From positions 1-46,766 of IMG/VR virus record IMGVR_UViG_3300048833_000105: a stretch of DNA of 46,766 nt. One strand, written 5' to 3'. This DNA comes from a virus. This document shows positions 1,241 to 46,766 of this stretch, piece by piece. The stretch's first letter is position 1; each line of letters opens with the position of its first letter. Both the position numbers and the translations under genes were made by a program. The notes under the pieces were generated by a model. That model had not been told where the DNA came from. It saw nothing but the letters and a program-made list of their open reading frames with translations, and ran no database searches.

Positions 1241-2080
1241 ATGCCCCTCATTTTCAACATGAACCCGCCGCTCGATGACGCCTCGATCCGCGCAGTCGTA
1301 CGCGAAGCCGAGATGTCCATGGCGCAGGGTGTGGACGCAAAGGCCGTGCTGGTCGATGCGGTCGTGGCGCACTACGCCGGTCTGTTCGCCGAGGATGTGA
1401 AGGGCGTCATCAAAGGCGCGCTCGACCTGCATCAGATGCTCGGCGGCACGGACGACGATCTGTTCGCCAGCATCATGACGCATTTCGCCGGCCTGGAGGA
1501 CATCACGGCCAAGACGATCGCGGATGCGCTGTCGCCGGCCAGCACGCTGGCCGATGCGATCGATGTGCGTGCGTGGCACGTCGCCAAGATCGTCGCCGGC
1601 CAGCAGCCGGTGCCAGGTGATGACAGCCGCGGCAAGTGGCTGGCGGCCTACGGCATCGTCGCCGAGCACGTGGCGGCCATCTCGCCCTCGACGGGCGCCA
1701 CGCCAACCCCGCCTGCACCTCCGCTACCGCCCATGCCGAGCGCGCCGCCCCCGCCTCCGCTGCCGCCGGGCGCCCCGGCTGCGCCCCCGCCCCCTCCCGC
1801 CGCCCCCACCCTTGCCGACGCGGTGGCTGCCACCACTTCCGAGCCTGGCAACATGCGCGATCCGGTCATGGTGTTCTTCGAAGCCCTCGACGTGGATGAC
1901 AAGGCGCTCTCCACGCGGCTCGGTATCTCGCAGGGCTCCATGCGCAACTGGAAGGCCGGCAAGACCTCCAAGGTCCGCATGTCGATCGATCAGATGCGCG
2001 TCATTCTTTCCGAGATCGACGTGCGCGTGGCCAAGCTGCACAAGGCGGCGGCGGTGTTCGCGCAGGCGGTGGGCAAGTGA
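1241..2080 (+). CDS. putative HTH DNA-binding protein with proline-rich linker
   Basis: A 279-residue protein with three parts. Residues about 10-150 are helical and of unknown family. Residues about 151-190 form a linker made almost only of Pro and Ala. Residues about 205-260 resemble a helix-turn-helix (KALSTRLGISQGSMRNWKAG), so DNA binding is likely. The ATG at 1241 is chosen because GGAG lies upstream and the reading frame further 5' covers the hairpin spacer. Its stop overlaps the resolvase start (GTGA, 2077-2080), which makes it the first gene of the replication operon. It may be a replication initiator or an early regulator. A plausible target is the iteron array at 43072-43169, but nothing in the sequence proves this. 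Confidence 0.7.
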   Translation: MPLIFNMNPPLDDASIRAVVREAEMSMAQGVDAKAVLVDAVVAHYAGLFAEDVKGVIKGALDLHQMLGGTDDDLFASIMTHFAGLEDITAKTIADALSPASTLADAIDVRAWHVAKIVAGQQPVPGDDSRGKWLAAYGIVAEHVAAISPSTGATPTPPAPPLPPMPSAPPPPPLPPGAPAAPPPPPAAPTLADAVAATTSEPGNMRDPVMVFFEALDVDDKALSTRLGISQGSMRNWKAGKTSKVRMSIDQMRVILSEIDVRVAKLHKAAAVFAQAVGK

Positions 2081-11561: not shown

Positions 11562-13541
11562 ATGTCGCTGCGCGATGCGGCGCTGGCGTGGGCGGCGCGG
11601 GGTTTCCGCGTCTTCCCGTTGCAGCCAAACGGCCGCCGCCCTACGCACGAGGGGTGGCACGAGTGGGCGTCGAACGATCCGGCAACCGTCGCCGGGTGGT
11701 GGAACGGCAGCCCTGATGCGAACATAGGCGTGCTGACCACGGGGCTACTCGTGGCCGATCTCGACTGTAAGGAAGGCAGGCGCGGGCTCGACACGTGGAT
11801 GTCGCTCTATGGCGGCTTCGACACGCTCACGGTGCGCACGCCATCGGGCGGCCTGCATCTGTACTATTCGGGCGCGGAGGTAGCGAACAGCCAGGGCGAG
11901 CACGGCGGGCTCGGGCCGGGGCTGGATGTACGAGGCCACCACGGCTACGTCATCGCGCCAGGCAGCGTCGTGGACGGGCGCACGTACCGTGTTGAAATTG
12001 ACAGGCCGATGGCGCCGGCGCCGCGCTCTATCGTCGCGCTGTGCCGCCCGCCGGGGTTCCGCGCGGAGAACGCCGCTGTCGCCTTGGTCGCGGCCGACAA
12101 CCCGCAAGCTATCGCCCTGGCTACGCAGGCCGTGGCCGGCTTTCCCGCCGCGGTTCAAGGCGAGCGGTCGATCGCGGTGTACAAGCTGGCGGCGGCGGTC
12201 AGAGACTACGGCGTGAGCGAGTTGATGGCGGCGACGCTCATGGCAGAGTGGGCTGATCGGTGCTCGCCGCCCGTGCCGCTTGACGATCTTCGAAGCATTG
12301 TGGGCAATGCCTACCTGTACGCGCAGAACCCCGCAGGCGCGAAGCATCCCGAGGCCATGTTCGGCAAGGTCGATCTGCCCGCACTGCCTGACGTTCATCC
12401 GCAGCTCAACGGGCACGCCGGCGCTGCGCTGCATTTCGGAAACGCGATCGCCGCCGGCGATCTGCAGCCGCGTGACTGGCTTCGGCACAGGTTCCTGATG
12501 CGCGGCCATGTGACGATGCTTGTGGCACCAGGCGGCGTCGGCAAGTCGCTGGTCCAGTTGACCACGGCCGCGTGTTTGGCGAACGGTGCAGACGTGTTCG
12601 ACTTCCGCGCTCCGATACCGGGCCAGTGGCACAAGTCGGTGATCTACAATGCCGAGGACACGTTGGAGGAAATGTCGATGCGCCTCGTGGCGATCTGCGC
12701 CACGCTTGGCTTTGACTACCCGACGACCGCCTCGCGCATCCTGCTGATCAGCGGCAAGACGCACGGCCGCGTGCGCATCATCAATGGTGGCAAAGAGATC
12801 GCGATCAACGAAGATGCGCTCAAGCTCCTGATGCGGTGGGCTGACGATCCCGAGGTGGCGCTGCTCGGCATGGACCCCTTGGCCAAGCTGCACACCGCGC
12901 AGGAGATCGACAACATGGCCATGACGTTCGTGATGGACGTGATGGAGATGATGGCCGAGAAGGCGCACGTCGCGGTCCTGCTGTCGCACCACACGAGCAA
13001 GCAATCGCTGTCGAGCAACGCGCGGTTTGCTGGCAATGCGGACAGCAGCCGTGGCGCCGGCTCCATCATCAACGGGCCGCGCTTCACCCTCACGCTGTCG
13101 TCTATGACGGAGGAAGATGCGGCGCACTATGCGGTCAGCGAAAGCGAGCGGCCTTGGTTCCTGCGCCTCGACGATGGCAAGCTGAATTATAGTGTGAAAT
13201 CTGACAAGGCGCTGTGGCTCAAGCGCGTGTCCTACAAGATGTGGAACGGGGAGGATGTCGGCGCGCTGGAGAAGGCCGACATGCACCTACGCACAGAAGG
13301 GCTGCGGCAGAATATCGCGACCGTTCTAGACGACGCTATGATGGGATTGAAGCACACCGCCGCGCTCAAACTCAGTGACGCTGTGGCGATGCTGCGCCAA
13401 GATCCCATGTTCGGGAAGCTGCCGGCGGCCGTGATGCGCACGCGCCTGTTGTCGTCTCTGGCCGATCCGGTCACGCTGCCGAACGGGCACACAATCTCTC
13501 TGACGGAGGATCGCGGCGCGACGCTGGTTGTGATGAACTAG
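11562..13541 (+). CDS. bifunctional primase-polymerase / RepA-like helicase
   Basis: A 659-residue fusion. The N-terminal prim-pol domain (about 1-160) shows RGFRVFPLQPNGRRP, VADLD (Asp66, Asp68), TPSGGLHLYY (His99) and LDVRGHHGYVIAPGS, the archaeo-eukaryotic-type primase residues. The C-terminal AAA ATPase (about 295-560) has Walker A APGGVGKS (322-329), YNAEDTLEE, Walker B ALLGMDPL (433-440), LLSHHTSK and an Arg-Gly-Ala sensor segment. Such proteins make primers and unwind DNA at the phage fork. There is no obvious ribosome-binding site, so translation may depend on the preceding gene, which ends 6 bases upstream. Its TAG stop shares CTAG (13538-13541) with the convergent spanin gene. Confidence 0.85.
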   Translation: MSLRDAALAWAARGFRVFPLQPNGRRPTHEGWHEWASNDPATVAGWWNGSPDANIGVLTTGLLVADLDCKEGRRGLDTWMSLYGGFDTLTVRTPSGGLHLYYSGAEVANSQGEHGGLGPGLDVRGHHGYVIAPGSVVDGRTYRVEIDRPMAPAPRSIVALCRPPGFRAENAAVALVAADNPQAIALATQAVAGFPAAVQGERSIAVYKLAAAVRDYGVSELMAATLMAEWADRCSPPVPLDDLRSIVGNAYLYAQNPAGAKHPEAMFGKVDLPALPDVHPQLNGHAGAALHFGNAIAAGDLQPRDWLRHRFLMRGHVTMLVAPGGVGKSLVQLTTAACLANGADVFDFRAPIPGQWHKSVIYNAEDTLEEMSMRLVAICATLGFDYPTTASRILLISGKTHGRVRIINGGKEIAINEDALKLLMRWADDPEVALLGMDPLAKLHTAQEIDNMAMTFVMDVMEMMAEKAHVAVLLSHHTSKQSLSSNARFAGNADSSRGAGSIINGPRFTLTLSSMTEEDAAHYAVSESERPWFLRLDDGKLNYSVKSDKALWLKRVSYKMWNGEDVGALEKADMHLRTEGLRQNIATVLDDAMMGLKHTAALKLSDAVAMLRQDPMFGKLPAAVMRTRLLSSLADPVTLPNGHTISLTEDRGATLVVMN

Positions 13542-42330: not shown

Positions 42331-42581
42331 GACTTCGCCTCCACAGCAATCACGACGTTCATCGTTTTGTTGAGTGCAGCACGCGCAGCGTCTTCGGCCG
42401 CTTCGGCTTCCAGTCGCCGGCGGGCCGCGGCACCAAGCTCGATGCGCGTAGTGGCTTCCGCGCTCGCCGCGGCGATGCGCGCGGCCATCGCGGCTTTCAG
42501 TGCAGCGAGCGCAGCGAGAACATCGTTCTCTGCCGCCGCCAGGCGAGACGCTTCCTCCAGCGTCAACAACTTCTCGCTCAT
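42327..42581 (-). CDS. small alanine-rich helical protein
   Basis: An 84-residue protein, both ends overlapping neighbours by ATGA. It is almost entirely one amphipathic Ala/Glu helix (LEEASRLAAAENDVLAALAA, ATTRIELGAAARRRLEAEAA), likely a dimeric coiled coil. Such proteins can serve as partners of a regulator. Here it is translated directly after the MarR-like gene, which makes a joint function plausible. No known family. Confidence 0.55.
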   Translation of the reverse strand: MSEKLLTLEEASRLAAAENDVLAALAALKAAMAARIAAASAEATTRIELGAAARRRLEAEAAEDAARAALNKTMNVVIAVEAKS

Positions 42582-42847
42582 GTGAATATCTCCGTTGCGG
42601 CAGCCTTGCCGCTCTCTGTCAGGATGAAGTGCATGCACCGCTTGTCGCTCTCATGCGGTGTACGCTGTCCGTACCCTTTCGCTTCAAGAGCTGAAAGAGC
42701 CCGCGTGATGCACGGCTTTGCGACAGCCATACGGTACGCCAAGTCGCGCACTTCGTCACATAGCCCGCGGTGCACGAGATACAGGACGCGCAACTCGCGG
42801 AGCGTCGTGATGCCGTGATCTTCGGCCGCCGTATAACCGATCTTCAT
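42578..42847 (-). CDS. MarR-like winged-helix transcriptional regulator
   Basis: An 89-residue protein, first gene of the leftward arm, with a near-perfect GGAGGTGA 5 bases before the ATG. The sequence LRELRVLYLVHRGLCDEVRD and LAYRMAVAKPCITRALSALE with AKGYGQRTPHESDKRCMHFI is a compact winged helix: a recognition helix around ITRALSALE, then a beta-wing ending in LTESGKAAATEI, as in MarR proteins. It is shorter than MarR (about 140), lacking the dimerisation helices. It lies next to the control region with operator-like palindromes (43541-43574) and probably regulates the divergent arms. Confidence 0.75.
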   Translation of the reverse strand: MKIGYTAAEDHGITTLRELRVLYLVHRGLCDEVRDLAYRMAVAKPCITRALSALEAKGYGQRTPHESDKRCMHFILTESGKAAATEIFT

Positions 42848-42990
42848 TGTTCACCTCCATCCTCCATCTTCCCAAACACCGTCACGCATCCAGACCATTC
42901 TGTCAACAGGTCAATCGCACCCATTCTGCTTTAATGGCTCAGTGCCAAATAGGCCGCGCCCAATGAGCGATCTTAACGCGAGGGCTTGTC

Positions 42991-43010
42991 GAAATTTTAT
43001 AAATATAAGC
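42991..43010. other. AT-rich patch beside the iterons
   Basis: GAAATTTTATAAATATAAGC is the most A+T-rich 20 bases seen in this GC-rich genome. It lies about 60 bp to the left of the iteron array, as DNA-unwinding elements do at iteron origins. It also contains TATAAA and TATAAG, which could act as -10 boxes. Confidence 0.5.
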
Positions 43011-43071
43011 ATAGAAGCATGTTTGTGCGATTTGGTTATGTGTGGGGCGGGTAGGCTTTTTGTGCATATAA

Positions 43072-43169
43072 GACAAATTGCTCGTGGAGACAAATTGAAC
43101 GCGCAGTGGGTGCGGGGTGAAAATTGTGCAAATTGTGCCTACATACAAATTGCTCACAACGACAAATTG
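43072..43169 (+). repeat. iteron array, CAAATTG every 17 bp
   Basis: Five copies of a 9-bp unit (R/T-A/G-CAAATTG) start at 43072, 43089, 43127, 43144 and 43161. Neighbouring copies are exactly 17 bp apart within each of two groups (two, then three). Two of them continue as CTC. A related TAAATTGCTCGCC lies at 43364-43376 and GATTTGCTCGCC at 43636-43647. A partial copy (AAATTGTGC) is at 43121. Such phased repeats are binding sites for a replication initiator or regulator. Confidence 0.75.
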
Positions 43170-43283
43170 CACTCGTAGCAAAAGTGCACACGCCGTATGT
43201 CCTACCCCTGGGAGACACGAGGCGGGCGGGCATCGGCGGGGCCACCCCTCCCTGATCCGCGGCATCGATGGGGTGGGGTCCTG

Positions 43284-43299
43284 GCCAGCTCGAGCTGGC
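43284..43299. promoter_or_regulatory. perfect 16-bp palindrome
   Basis: GCCAGCTCGAGCTGGC is an uninterrupted perfect palindrome in the control region. It is followed by GCGCCTAGC at 43299-43307, which is repeated at 43325-43333. It could be a dimeric protein-binding site. As RNA it would make only a short hairpin without a usable loop. Confidence 0.5.
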
Positions 43300-43537
43300 G
43301 CCTAGCACGGTCCGGCCACATCAGCGCCTAGCCAAATGGCAAGCCGCATAAGAACCATTATGTAAATTGCTCGCCTAAGCCATTGATAAGGCTAGTTATT
43401 CTCGTGCGCGCTGCGCAGAGTAACCCTGCGTGCAACCTGATCTTGTTGTGTGGAACAACGAATGGGCCGCGCCGCGCATTCGTGGTGTTGCTGTGAGCGC
43501 GCTCTGTAGATCTGTGCTAGGTGGGCGCCAGGCCAGT

Positions 43538-43574
43538 GTTATGTTATAACATCTCGTAGGTTATGTTATAACGT
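43538..43574. promoter_or_regulatory. twin operator-like palindromes, 22 bp apart
   Basis: GTTATGTTATAAC occurs exactly twice, at 43538-43550 and 43560-43572. Each copy contains a dyad, ATGTTATAACAT (perfect, 43541-43552) and ATGTTATAACGT (near-perfect, 43563-43574). The 22-bp period places both on one face of the helix, as expected for cooperative binding of two repressor dimers. The embedded TATAAC could serve as a -10 box. Confidence 0.65.
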
Positions 43575-43802
43575 GGCTCATCTACTCATCGGGTCGTGGC
43601 CGAGTGAGCATAGGGGCAATGCGGACTATGAGTGCGATTTGCTCGCCTCGAACAAAGTCTATGAGCCCAATTGGTCAGAAAGCGTAGCAATCCGCACAAA
43701 TCTCACTCTCTGCACCACAGCCGCACTATGCGTCCCATGAGCAAAACTCGTGCTTCTAGCCTTATCCATAAATCATCAATATGAGTACCAAGAGTTGAAA
43801 GA

Positions 43803-43827
43803 GGGTGCCGAGTGCCCGCAGGCACCC
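43803..43827. terminator. G-C hairpin, weak terminator candidate
   Basis: GGGTGCC (43803-43809) pairs with GGCACCC (43821-43827), loop 11. On the minus strand it is followed by TCTTTC, on the plus strand by GCTTTCGGCCTTT. Neither is a strong U-tract, so it may be a pause or attenuator hairpin rather than a full terminator. Confidence 0.4.
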
Positions 43828-43869
43828 GCTTTCGGCCTTTGCAATCATAGCAAGATTGCCTTTTTCCTT

Positions 43870-43941
43870 CCCTCTGTCTGTGCCTTTGGTTATGTATTGA
43901 CAGACAGAGGGAGGGGCCCCTACCCCACCCTCTGTCTGTCA
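43870..43941 (+). promoter_or_regulatory. three-copy repeat forming two exclusive hairpins
   Basis: CCCTCTGTCTGT at 43870-43881, its inverse TGACAGACAGAGGG at 43898-43911, and CCCTCTGTCTGTCA at 43928-43941. The middle copy can pair with the first (12 bp, loop 18) or the third (14 bp perfect, loop 16 containing GGGGCCCC). This is the layout of an attenuator or antitermination switch in the leader of the gene at 44020. Confidence 0.65.
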
Positions 43942-44019
43942 TACTACCACTACTCGTCTTTACGACCCTCAACCCTCAGTTACGCGCCCGAGCGCGAGGC
44001 AGCGACAAAGGCAAAGATC

Positions 44020-46209: not shown

Positions 46210-46766
46210 ATGGGCAAAAAGTACGAGTTCACGGGCGAAACAAAGGGCAGGCTTCGCCAAATCCGTCGCGTTGCAGACGGCACAATAGGAGGCTGGATTG
46301 AGCACGAGCACAATTTGTCGCATGTCGGCGATGCGTGGGTGTCCGACAATGCGCGGGTGTTCGGCGATGCGCGGGTGTCCGGCGATGCGTGGGTGTTCGG
46401 CAATGCGTGGGTGTTCGGCGATGCGCGGGTGTCCGGCGATGCGTGGGTGTTCGGCAATGCGGGGGTGTCCGGCAATGCGCAGGTGTTCGGCAATGCGCGG
46501 GTGTTCGGCAATGCGCGGGTGTTCGGCAATGCGCGGGTGTTCGGCAATGCGCGGGTGTTCGGCGATGCGCAGGTGTTCGGCGACCTGAAAATTGCCACGC
46601 GATCGGACGGCTACACGTTCGCATTGTTTCCATGCACCGACGGCGTGTGGCGCTTGACGGCAGGGTGCCGATATTTCGGCATGGACGAAGCGCGCAAACA
46701 TTGGGCAGAGACGCGCGGCGGAACCGCACTTGGCGATGAGACGATGGACATTCTAGCCTTGTTTGA
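46210..46766 (+). CDS. hexapeptide-repeat protein, continues across the window end
   Basis: The frame is open to the last base (185 codons plus two bases). Joined to base 1 it reads on as Glu-Arg-Gln-stop (stop at 8-10), giving 188 residues. GGAG lies 6 bases before the ATG. After KKYEFTGETKGRLRQIRRVA and GGWIEHEHNLSHV come 14 hexapeptides of the type G-(N/D)-A-(R/W/Q)-V-(F/S), residues 40-123. These should wind a left-handed beta-helix. A conserved C-terminal domain follows: RSDGYTFALFPCTDGVWRLT, AGCRYFGMDEARKHW and ETRGGTALGDETMDIL. Similar phage and prophage proteins exist, with unknown role. The repeats are nearly identical in DNA, so copy number may vary. Confidence 0.75.
   Translation, partial: MGKKYEFTGETKGRLRQIRRVADGTIGGWIEHEHNLSHVGDAWVSDNARVFGDARVSGDAWVFGNAWVFGDARVSGDAWVFGNAGVSGNAQVFGNARVFGNARVFGNARVFGNARVFGDAQVFGDLKIATRSDGYTFALFPCTDGVWRLTAGCRYFGMDEARKHWAETRGGTALGDETMDILALF
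46327..46578 (+). repeat. 14 tandem 18-bp repeats
   Basis: Fourteen units of 18 bp, consensus GG(C)(A/G)ATGCGCGGGTGTTC. The last third contains several identical copies in a row. Each unit encodes one hexapeptide. Near-identity at the DNA level indicates recent expansion by slippage or unequal recombination, and it keeps the frame. Confidence 0.9.

Follow-up and report, generated by a model that had tools for sequence, protein, structure and literature searches.

Repeat array at the divergence point of the gene arms

At the point where its left and right gene arms diverge, a tailed-phage genome from the IMG/VR collection carries a row of short direct repeats, which raises the question whether this row starts replication or switches genes. 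The genome (virus record IMGVR_UViG_3300048833_000105, 46,766 bp, roughly 64% G+C) was analysed over its whole length, here called the window. A preliminary description, which interpreted the row as an iteron-type replication origin, had placed five CAAATTG units in two groups with exact 17-bp steps, at the divergence point of the arms and near the most A+T-rich spot of the genome. The positions, the spacing and both statements on the surroundings were borne out. CAAATTG occurs eight times in the window, and five of these copies lie on the + strand at 43074, 43091, 43129, 43146 and 43163, with start-to-start distances of 17, 38, 17 and 17 bp. The most A+T-rich 50-mer of the record (74% A+T) starts at 42992. 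For comparison we used the relatives IMGVR_UViG_3300048589_000274 (G001), IMGVR_UViG_3300033076_000881 (G002), L018/L066 (G003) and L080/L084. A + strand ORF listed at 43750 has a frame that is broken in G001 ahead of Met 44020 and is thus noncoding before this residue, so that the intergenic region spans 42848-44019 (1.17 kb). It contains the following features:

42980..43041: A+T-rich stretch, candidate unwinding element; 42980-43011 is identical in G001 (a 32-bp run)
43074..43097, + strand: CAAATTG units 1 and 2, 17 bp apart
43120..43126, + strand: degenerate unit AAAATTG between the two groups, the same in G001
43129..43169, + strand: CAAATTG units 3, 4 and 5, 17 bp apart
43230..43280: G+C-rich block (GGGGCCACCCC...GGGGTGGGG); in G002, G003 and L080, a block like it lies ahead of the dif-like site (see below)
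43538..43572: GTTATGTTATAAC in two copies at a distance of 22 bp, with hardly any change in G001

The array is far beyond chance. Shuffling the intergenic region 300 times never yielded more than 3 copies of any 7-mer per 100 bp, and the maximum in 20 whole-record shuffles was 4. At least three CAAATTG copies, or a pair 17 bp apart, were found in none of 3000 shuffled intergenic regions. Denser 7-mer clusters occur only as in-frame coding repeats at 46300-46580. These repeats of 18 bp give rise to a protein with a hexapeptide repeat (FGDARV-like).

In G001, the units lie at L002 5366, 5383, 5422, 5439 and 5456, with the same in-group 17-bp spacing. All core bases are unchanged (35/35), whereas 14 of the 61 inter-core bases differ and 47 are the same (Fisher p 0.0016). 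Since the cores are kept while the bases between them diverge, the CAAATTG units behave as protein-binding sites. The repeat unit is wider than 7 bp; in window and G001 together, an A precedes the core in 9/10 copies and a C occupies unit position 10 in 10/10. Judged from this conservation, the units are very probably protein-binding sites, and the protein probably acts either at a replication start or in a gene switch. Two outlying copies had also been pointed out. The copy at 43364 turned out to lie in the right arm of a dif-like site that the preliminary description had missed, and G001 lacks the stretch that holds the copy at 43636.

Other elements of the intergenic region were examined as well. 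The GTTATGTTATAAC copies are likely operators of the rightward genes. A 47-bp run at 43441-43487 is the same in G001 and holds most of an imperfect inverted repeat (43455-43486). At 43776-43852, 77 noncoding bases with a GGGTGCC...GGCACCC stem are identical in G001 and possibly form a leader RNA element. A very stable hairpin at 43898-43944 (-41 kcal/mol, z -7.4 for 43885-43955), the arms of which still pair in G001 despite base changes, is likely a terminator or leader RNA structure. As a DNA hairpin, the G+C-rich block was no more stable than its shuffles and was rejected. Rfam gave weak sub-threshold matches only, and no phage record matched the region at the DNA level.

Related genomes with and without the array

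When the viral collection was scanned for the exact array layout, G001 was the only match. G002 and G003 are related to the window by virion and replication genes, and L080/L084 by virion genes, the only kinship seen there. The CAAATTG array is absent from these three lineages, even though G002 and G003 carry replication genes homologous to those of the window. At the place of the array, G002 (L017 1671-1744) has two 32-bp repeats (GGCATAACGTAAGGCTTGGAC), 42 bp apart. Elsewhere in G002, between L009 and L011 (G002:C1:24062-25309), the DNA polymerase gene is apparently split by ~1.2 kb, a candidate for an intron or intein.

This distribution bears on the idea that the row serves packaging (pac/cos) or partition. 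Direct repeats are known from some sites of either kind, and the terminase small-subunit gene (TerS) lies on the - strand 2.3 kb from the array. We nevertheless regard such a role as very improbable, because TerS is ~60% identical in G002 and G003, which both lack the array, and because no ParA-type ATPase was found.

Replication genes and candidate binding proteins

The - strand carries the virion genes, including a Head-tail_con protein and a terminase large subunit with 42-46% identity to Pseudomonas phage AF and phiV10-type phages. A replication module on the + strand encodes a RuvC-like resolvase, an SNF2-type helicase, a DUF2800 exonuclease, an Enc34-type ssDNA-binding protein, a family A polymerase and PrimPol-AAA_25. 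Three of the proteins encoded in the window bear on the function of the array:

11562..13541, + strand: PrimPol fused to a RepA-like AAA_25 helicase (Pfam; helicase part 30% identical to IncQ RepA, 2e-13)
42578..42847, - strand: 89-aa MarR-like winged-helix protein, candidate array binder (Pfam MarR, 3.5e-09)
1241..2080, + strand: 279-aa protein with a C-terminal Cro-like HTH, alternative binder (HTH resemblance; conserved in G002, G003, L019 and L020)

Among plasmids, the PrimPol-fused helicase domain is closest to RepA of IncQ plasmids. No Rep-family initiator was matched among the ORFs scanned in the window, which yielded two HTH candidates only, the same two that had been proposed as binding proteins. 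As genomes without the array have kept the 1241 protein too, this protein does not track the array; a fold search with this protein gave no significant match. For the 42578 protein, a homolog was found only in G001, which also carries the array, and is missing from G002 and G003, an association that covers one clade with two genomes. Used alone as a search query, the gene found no relative. Its detection only together with the array makes this protein a candidate binder and suits a transcription operator equally well.

In the latter case, the MarR-like protein or another regulator would sit on the repeats, ahead of the leftward operon, and activate or repress divergent promoters. Besides occurring and being missing together with the array, the MarR-like gene opens the leftward operon at a distance of 226 bp from the array, and exchange of regulators and operators is common between related phages. 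On the other hand, G001 has ~0.4 kb of extra DNA between the gene and the array, a scan for sigma-70-type promoters found none, and five direct repeats would be a large number in a MarR-type operator. Such an operator would be palindromic and bound by a dimer; the CAAATTG units are direct repeats, although CAAATTG itself is nearly palindromic. Its 89 aa make the protein smaller than those MarR proteins that form dimers and leave no room for the outer dimerisation helices, so that a monomer bound to direct repeats is conceivable. Because the array is lineage-specific and goes together with a regulator-like gene, we consider an operator nearly as likely as an origin.

Origin of replication as the most likely reading

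An iteron-type origin remains the single most likely reading of the array, because the array is noncoding, conserved like binding sites and located beside an A+T-rich stretch; we give this reading a probability of about 40%. Iteron-type origins are characterized by multiple, regularly spaced direct repeats in noncoding DNA and by an adjacent A+T-rich unwinding region, and both are present here. The A+T-rich peak is also found at the corresponding place in G003 and L080. The balance is tipped slightly towards an origin by the IncQ RepA-like helicase in combination with the A+T-rich stretch. In the proposed mechanism, a winged-helix or HTH phage protein would occupy the CAAATTG row and melt the conserved A+T-rich stretch beside it, where the PrimPol-RepA-like helicase would load.

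Other observations argue against an origin. No initiator was identified, and the sole candidate that tracks the array is the MarR-like gene of the leftward operon. Iterons of Rep_3-type plasmids are usually spaced by about two helical turns, which the 17-bp period of the array does not match. Moreover, G002, G003 and L080/L084 lack the array, although the first two share homologous replication genes with the window. GC-skew analysis, which had been suggested as a check, was uninformative; the extremes lie elsewhere and the position of the array is not singled out. One DnaA box with one mismatch was found at 43762 and is absent from G001, where none is conserved.

A dif-like site beside the array

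The dif-like site, rather than the array, is the more surprising element of the region. Comparison of the relatives by eye revealed a common element at 43346-43388, GCATAA-N5-ATTATGKAAA-N8-CTAAG..TGATA, which belongs to two features:

43341..43368, + strand: dif-like XerC/XerD site (XerC arm 43341-43351, centre 43352-43357, XerD arm 43358-43368)
43375..43388, + strand: phage-specific flank CTAAG-N4-TGATA on the XerD side, at 38 loci (27 distinct sequences) in several phage lineages

A simple dif consensus count discriminated poorly (17 here vs up to 16 in shuffles), so we used a matrix derived from 38 published dif sites (PMC2731167). In the window, it gave 32.1 bits at 43341-43368, compared to 12.8 at the next place and 14.6 for the best of 60 shuffles, and it ranked the same element first in 9/9 other sequences scanned. 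Xer sites consist of 11-bp arms with CATAA/TTATG inner parts and asymmetric outer parts around a variable 6-bp centre (PMC2731167, PMC7315799), and 43341-43368 shows this layout in its arms, centre and asymmetry. We therefore designate it a predicted dif-like XerC/XerD site. An ordinary palindromic operator was also considered for the CATAA...TTATG element and is disfavoured by the asymmetric arms, the variable 6-bp centre and the matrix score. In its XerD arm, TTATGKAAA, the site resembles dif of alpha-, some beta- and some deltaproteobacteria more closely than gammaproteobacterial TTATGTTAAAT, which may be a hint to the host group. In BLAST searches, a member of the element family matched Acinetobacter plasmid sites; a dif query used as yardstick gave ~1 match per E. 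coli chromosome.

Scanning IMG/VR for a portion of the element returned 44 stretches. Refining the pattern by a preceding G and a following TGAT, bases that in contrast to those of the scan pattern are not conserved by construction, left the 38 loci, which include the window, G001, G002 and G003; the element thus recurs in at least 34 other records. Most of them lie near PrimPol/primase and/or terminase genes. A tyrosine integrase was found in 1/15 element-bearing records tested and ParA (PF13614) in 0/15, several of these records being fragments. The window itself has no PF00589 match and, like integrative elements exploiting Xer (IMEX), is without a tyrosine integrase of its own. Two further sequences were observed just downstream of the dif-like site in relatives: a perfect 15-bp inverted repeat (TAGGACACAATGCGC) in G003 (L018 1177-1246) and a GTG microsatellite at L080 6043-6090.

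The end of the array lies 171 bp from the dif-like site, on its XerC side. It might therefore be an accessory array, where an architectural or Xis/Cox-like protein on the repeats steers recombination at 43341-43368, as cer/psi accessory sequences do. Small winged-helix directionality factors bind direct repeats, which counts for this explanation. So does the length of about 180 bp of the accessory sequences of plasmid Xer sites (PMC5357621). We still judge it improbable, since many phages keep the dif-like site without any such array; near the element in other phages, no comparable repeat array was found, L080/L084 having only the microsatellite.

Returning to the origin, the array would be part of a plasmid-like control region that also holds the dif-like site, and this site would serve dimer resolution or integration via the host Xer recombinases. 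The intergenic region looks plasmid-like. What the sequences show is the array with its base-level conservation, the A+T-rich neighbour, the kinship of the helicase and the recurring dif-like site; protein binding, initiation and Xer recombination are inferred from them. More broadly, we tentatively propose, at somewhat less than even odds, that a broad range of mainly uncultivated tailed phages, most of which do not encode a tyrosine integrase, possess a dif-like site with its own conserved CTAAG-TGATA box, often near the terminase, and use host Xer for integration at dif or for dimer resolution of a plasmid-like prophage, the CAAATTG array being the origin in this clade. Should the dif-like site prove functional, exploitation of host Xer would extend from filamentous and tailless phages to tailed ones, and phage contigs without an integrase, often taken as lytic, may stem from temperate or plasmid-like phages. 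At 1.17 kb, the region with the A+T-rich stretch, repeat array and Xer-like site is small enough for direct assays of replication, protein binding and recombination.

Comparison with known systems

The window resembles epsilon15/phiV10-like podoviruses in its terminase large subunit (42% identical to phiV10) and its Head-tail_con protein. It differs from them by another replication module (PolA, PrimPol-RepA, SNF2-type helicase), by the dif-like site and in that no integrase was found. With IncQ/RSF1010 oriV, which uses RepA as helicase and RepC as initiator, it shares a related hexameric helicase domain and direct repeats that adjoin A+T-rich and G+C-rich blocks. IncQ plasmids replicate from iterons bound by RepC, and the iteron period of RSF1010 is 20 bp. 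In the window, by contrast, the period is 17 bp, the order of the blocks is different, no RepC homolog was detected and the helicase is fused to PrimPol.

Like the Xer-exploiting CTXphi, VGJphi, TLCphi, XacF1, NO16, Jorvik and LME-1, the window has a dif-like site and represents a phage without its own tyrosine integrase. Those elements are filamentous or tailless, whereas the window is a tailed phage, for which integration is a candidate use of the site. Use of dif by phages that lack an integrase has been documented for filamentous and tailless ones (PMC5357621, PMC4076744, PMC9966536, PMC10589892). We found no report of tailed phages doing so in the literature searched, which is no proof of absence, and none of the CTAAG-TGATA flank in the literature examined on Xer-exploiting integrative elements. 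Rep_3-type iteron plasmid origins with Xer (pdif) sites, for example on Acinetobacter plasmids (PMC7315799, PMC11705084), differ from the window, a tailed-phage genome, in that no Rep protein was found beside its repeats. Nevertheless, in both cases a single replicon combines direct repeats with an A+T-rich stretch and a XerC/XerD site, and the plasmid site CGCATAACGTCCATTATGTTAAAT is close to the phage dif-like site.
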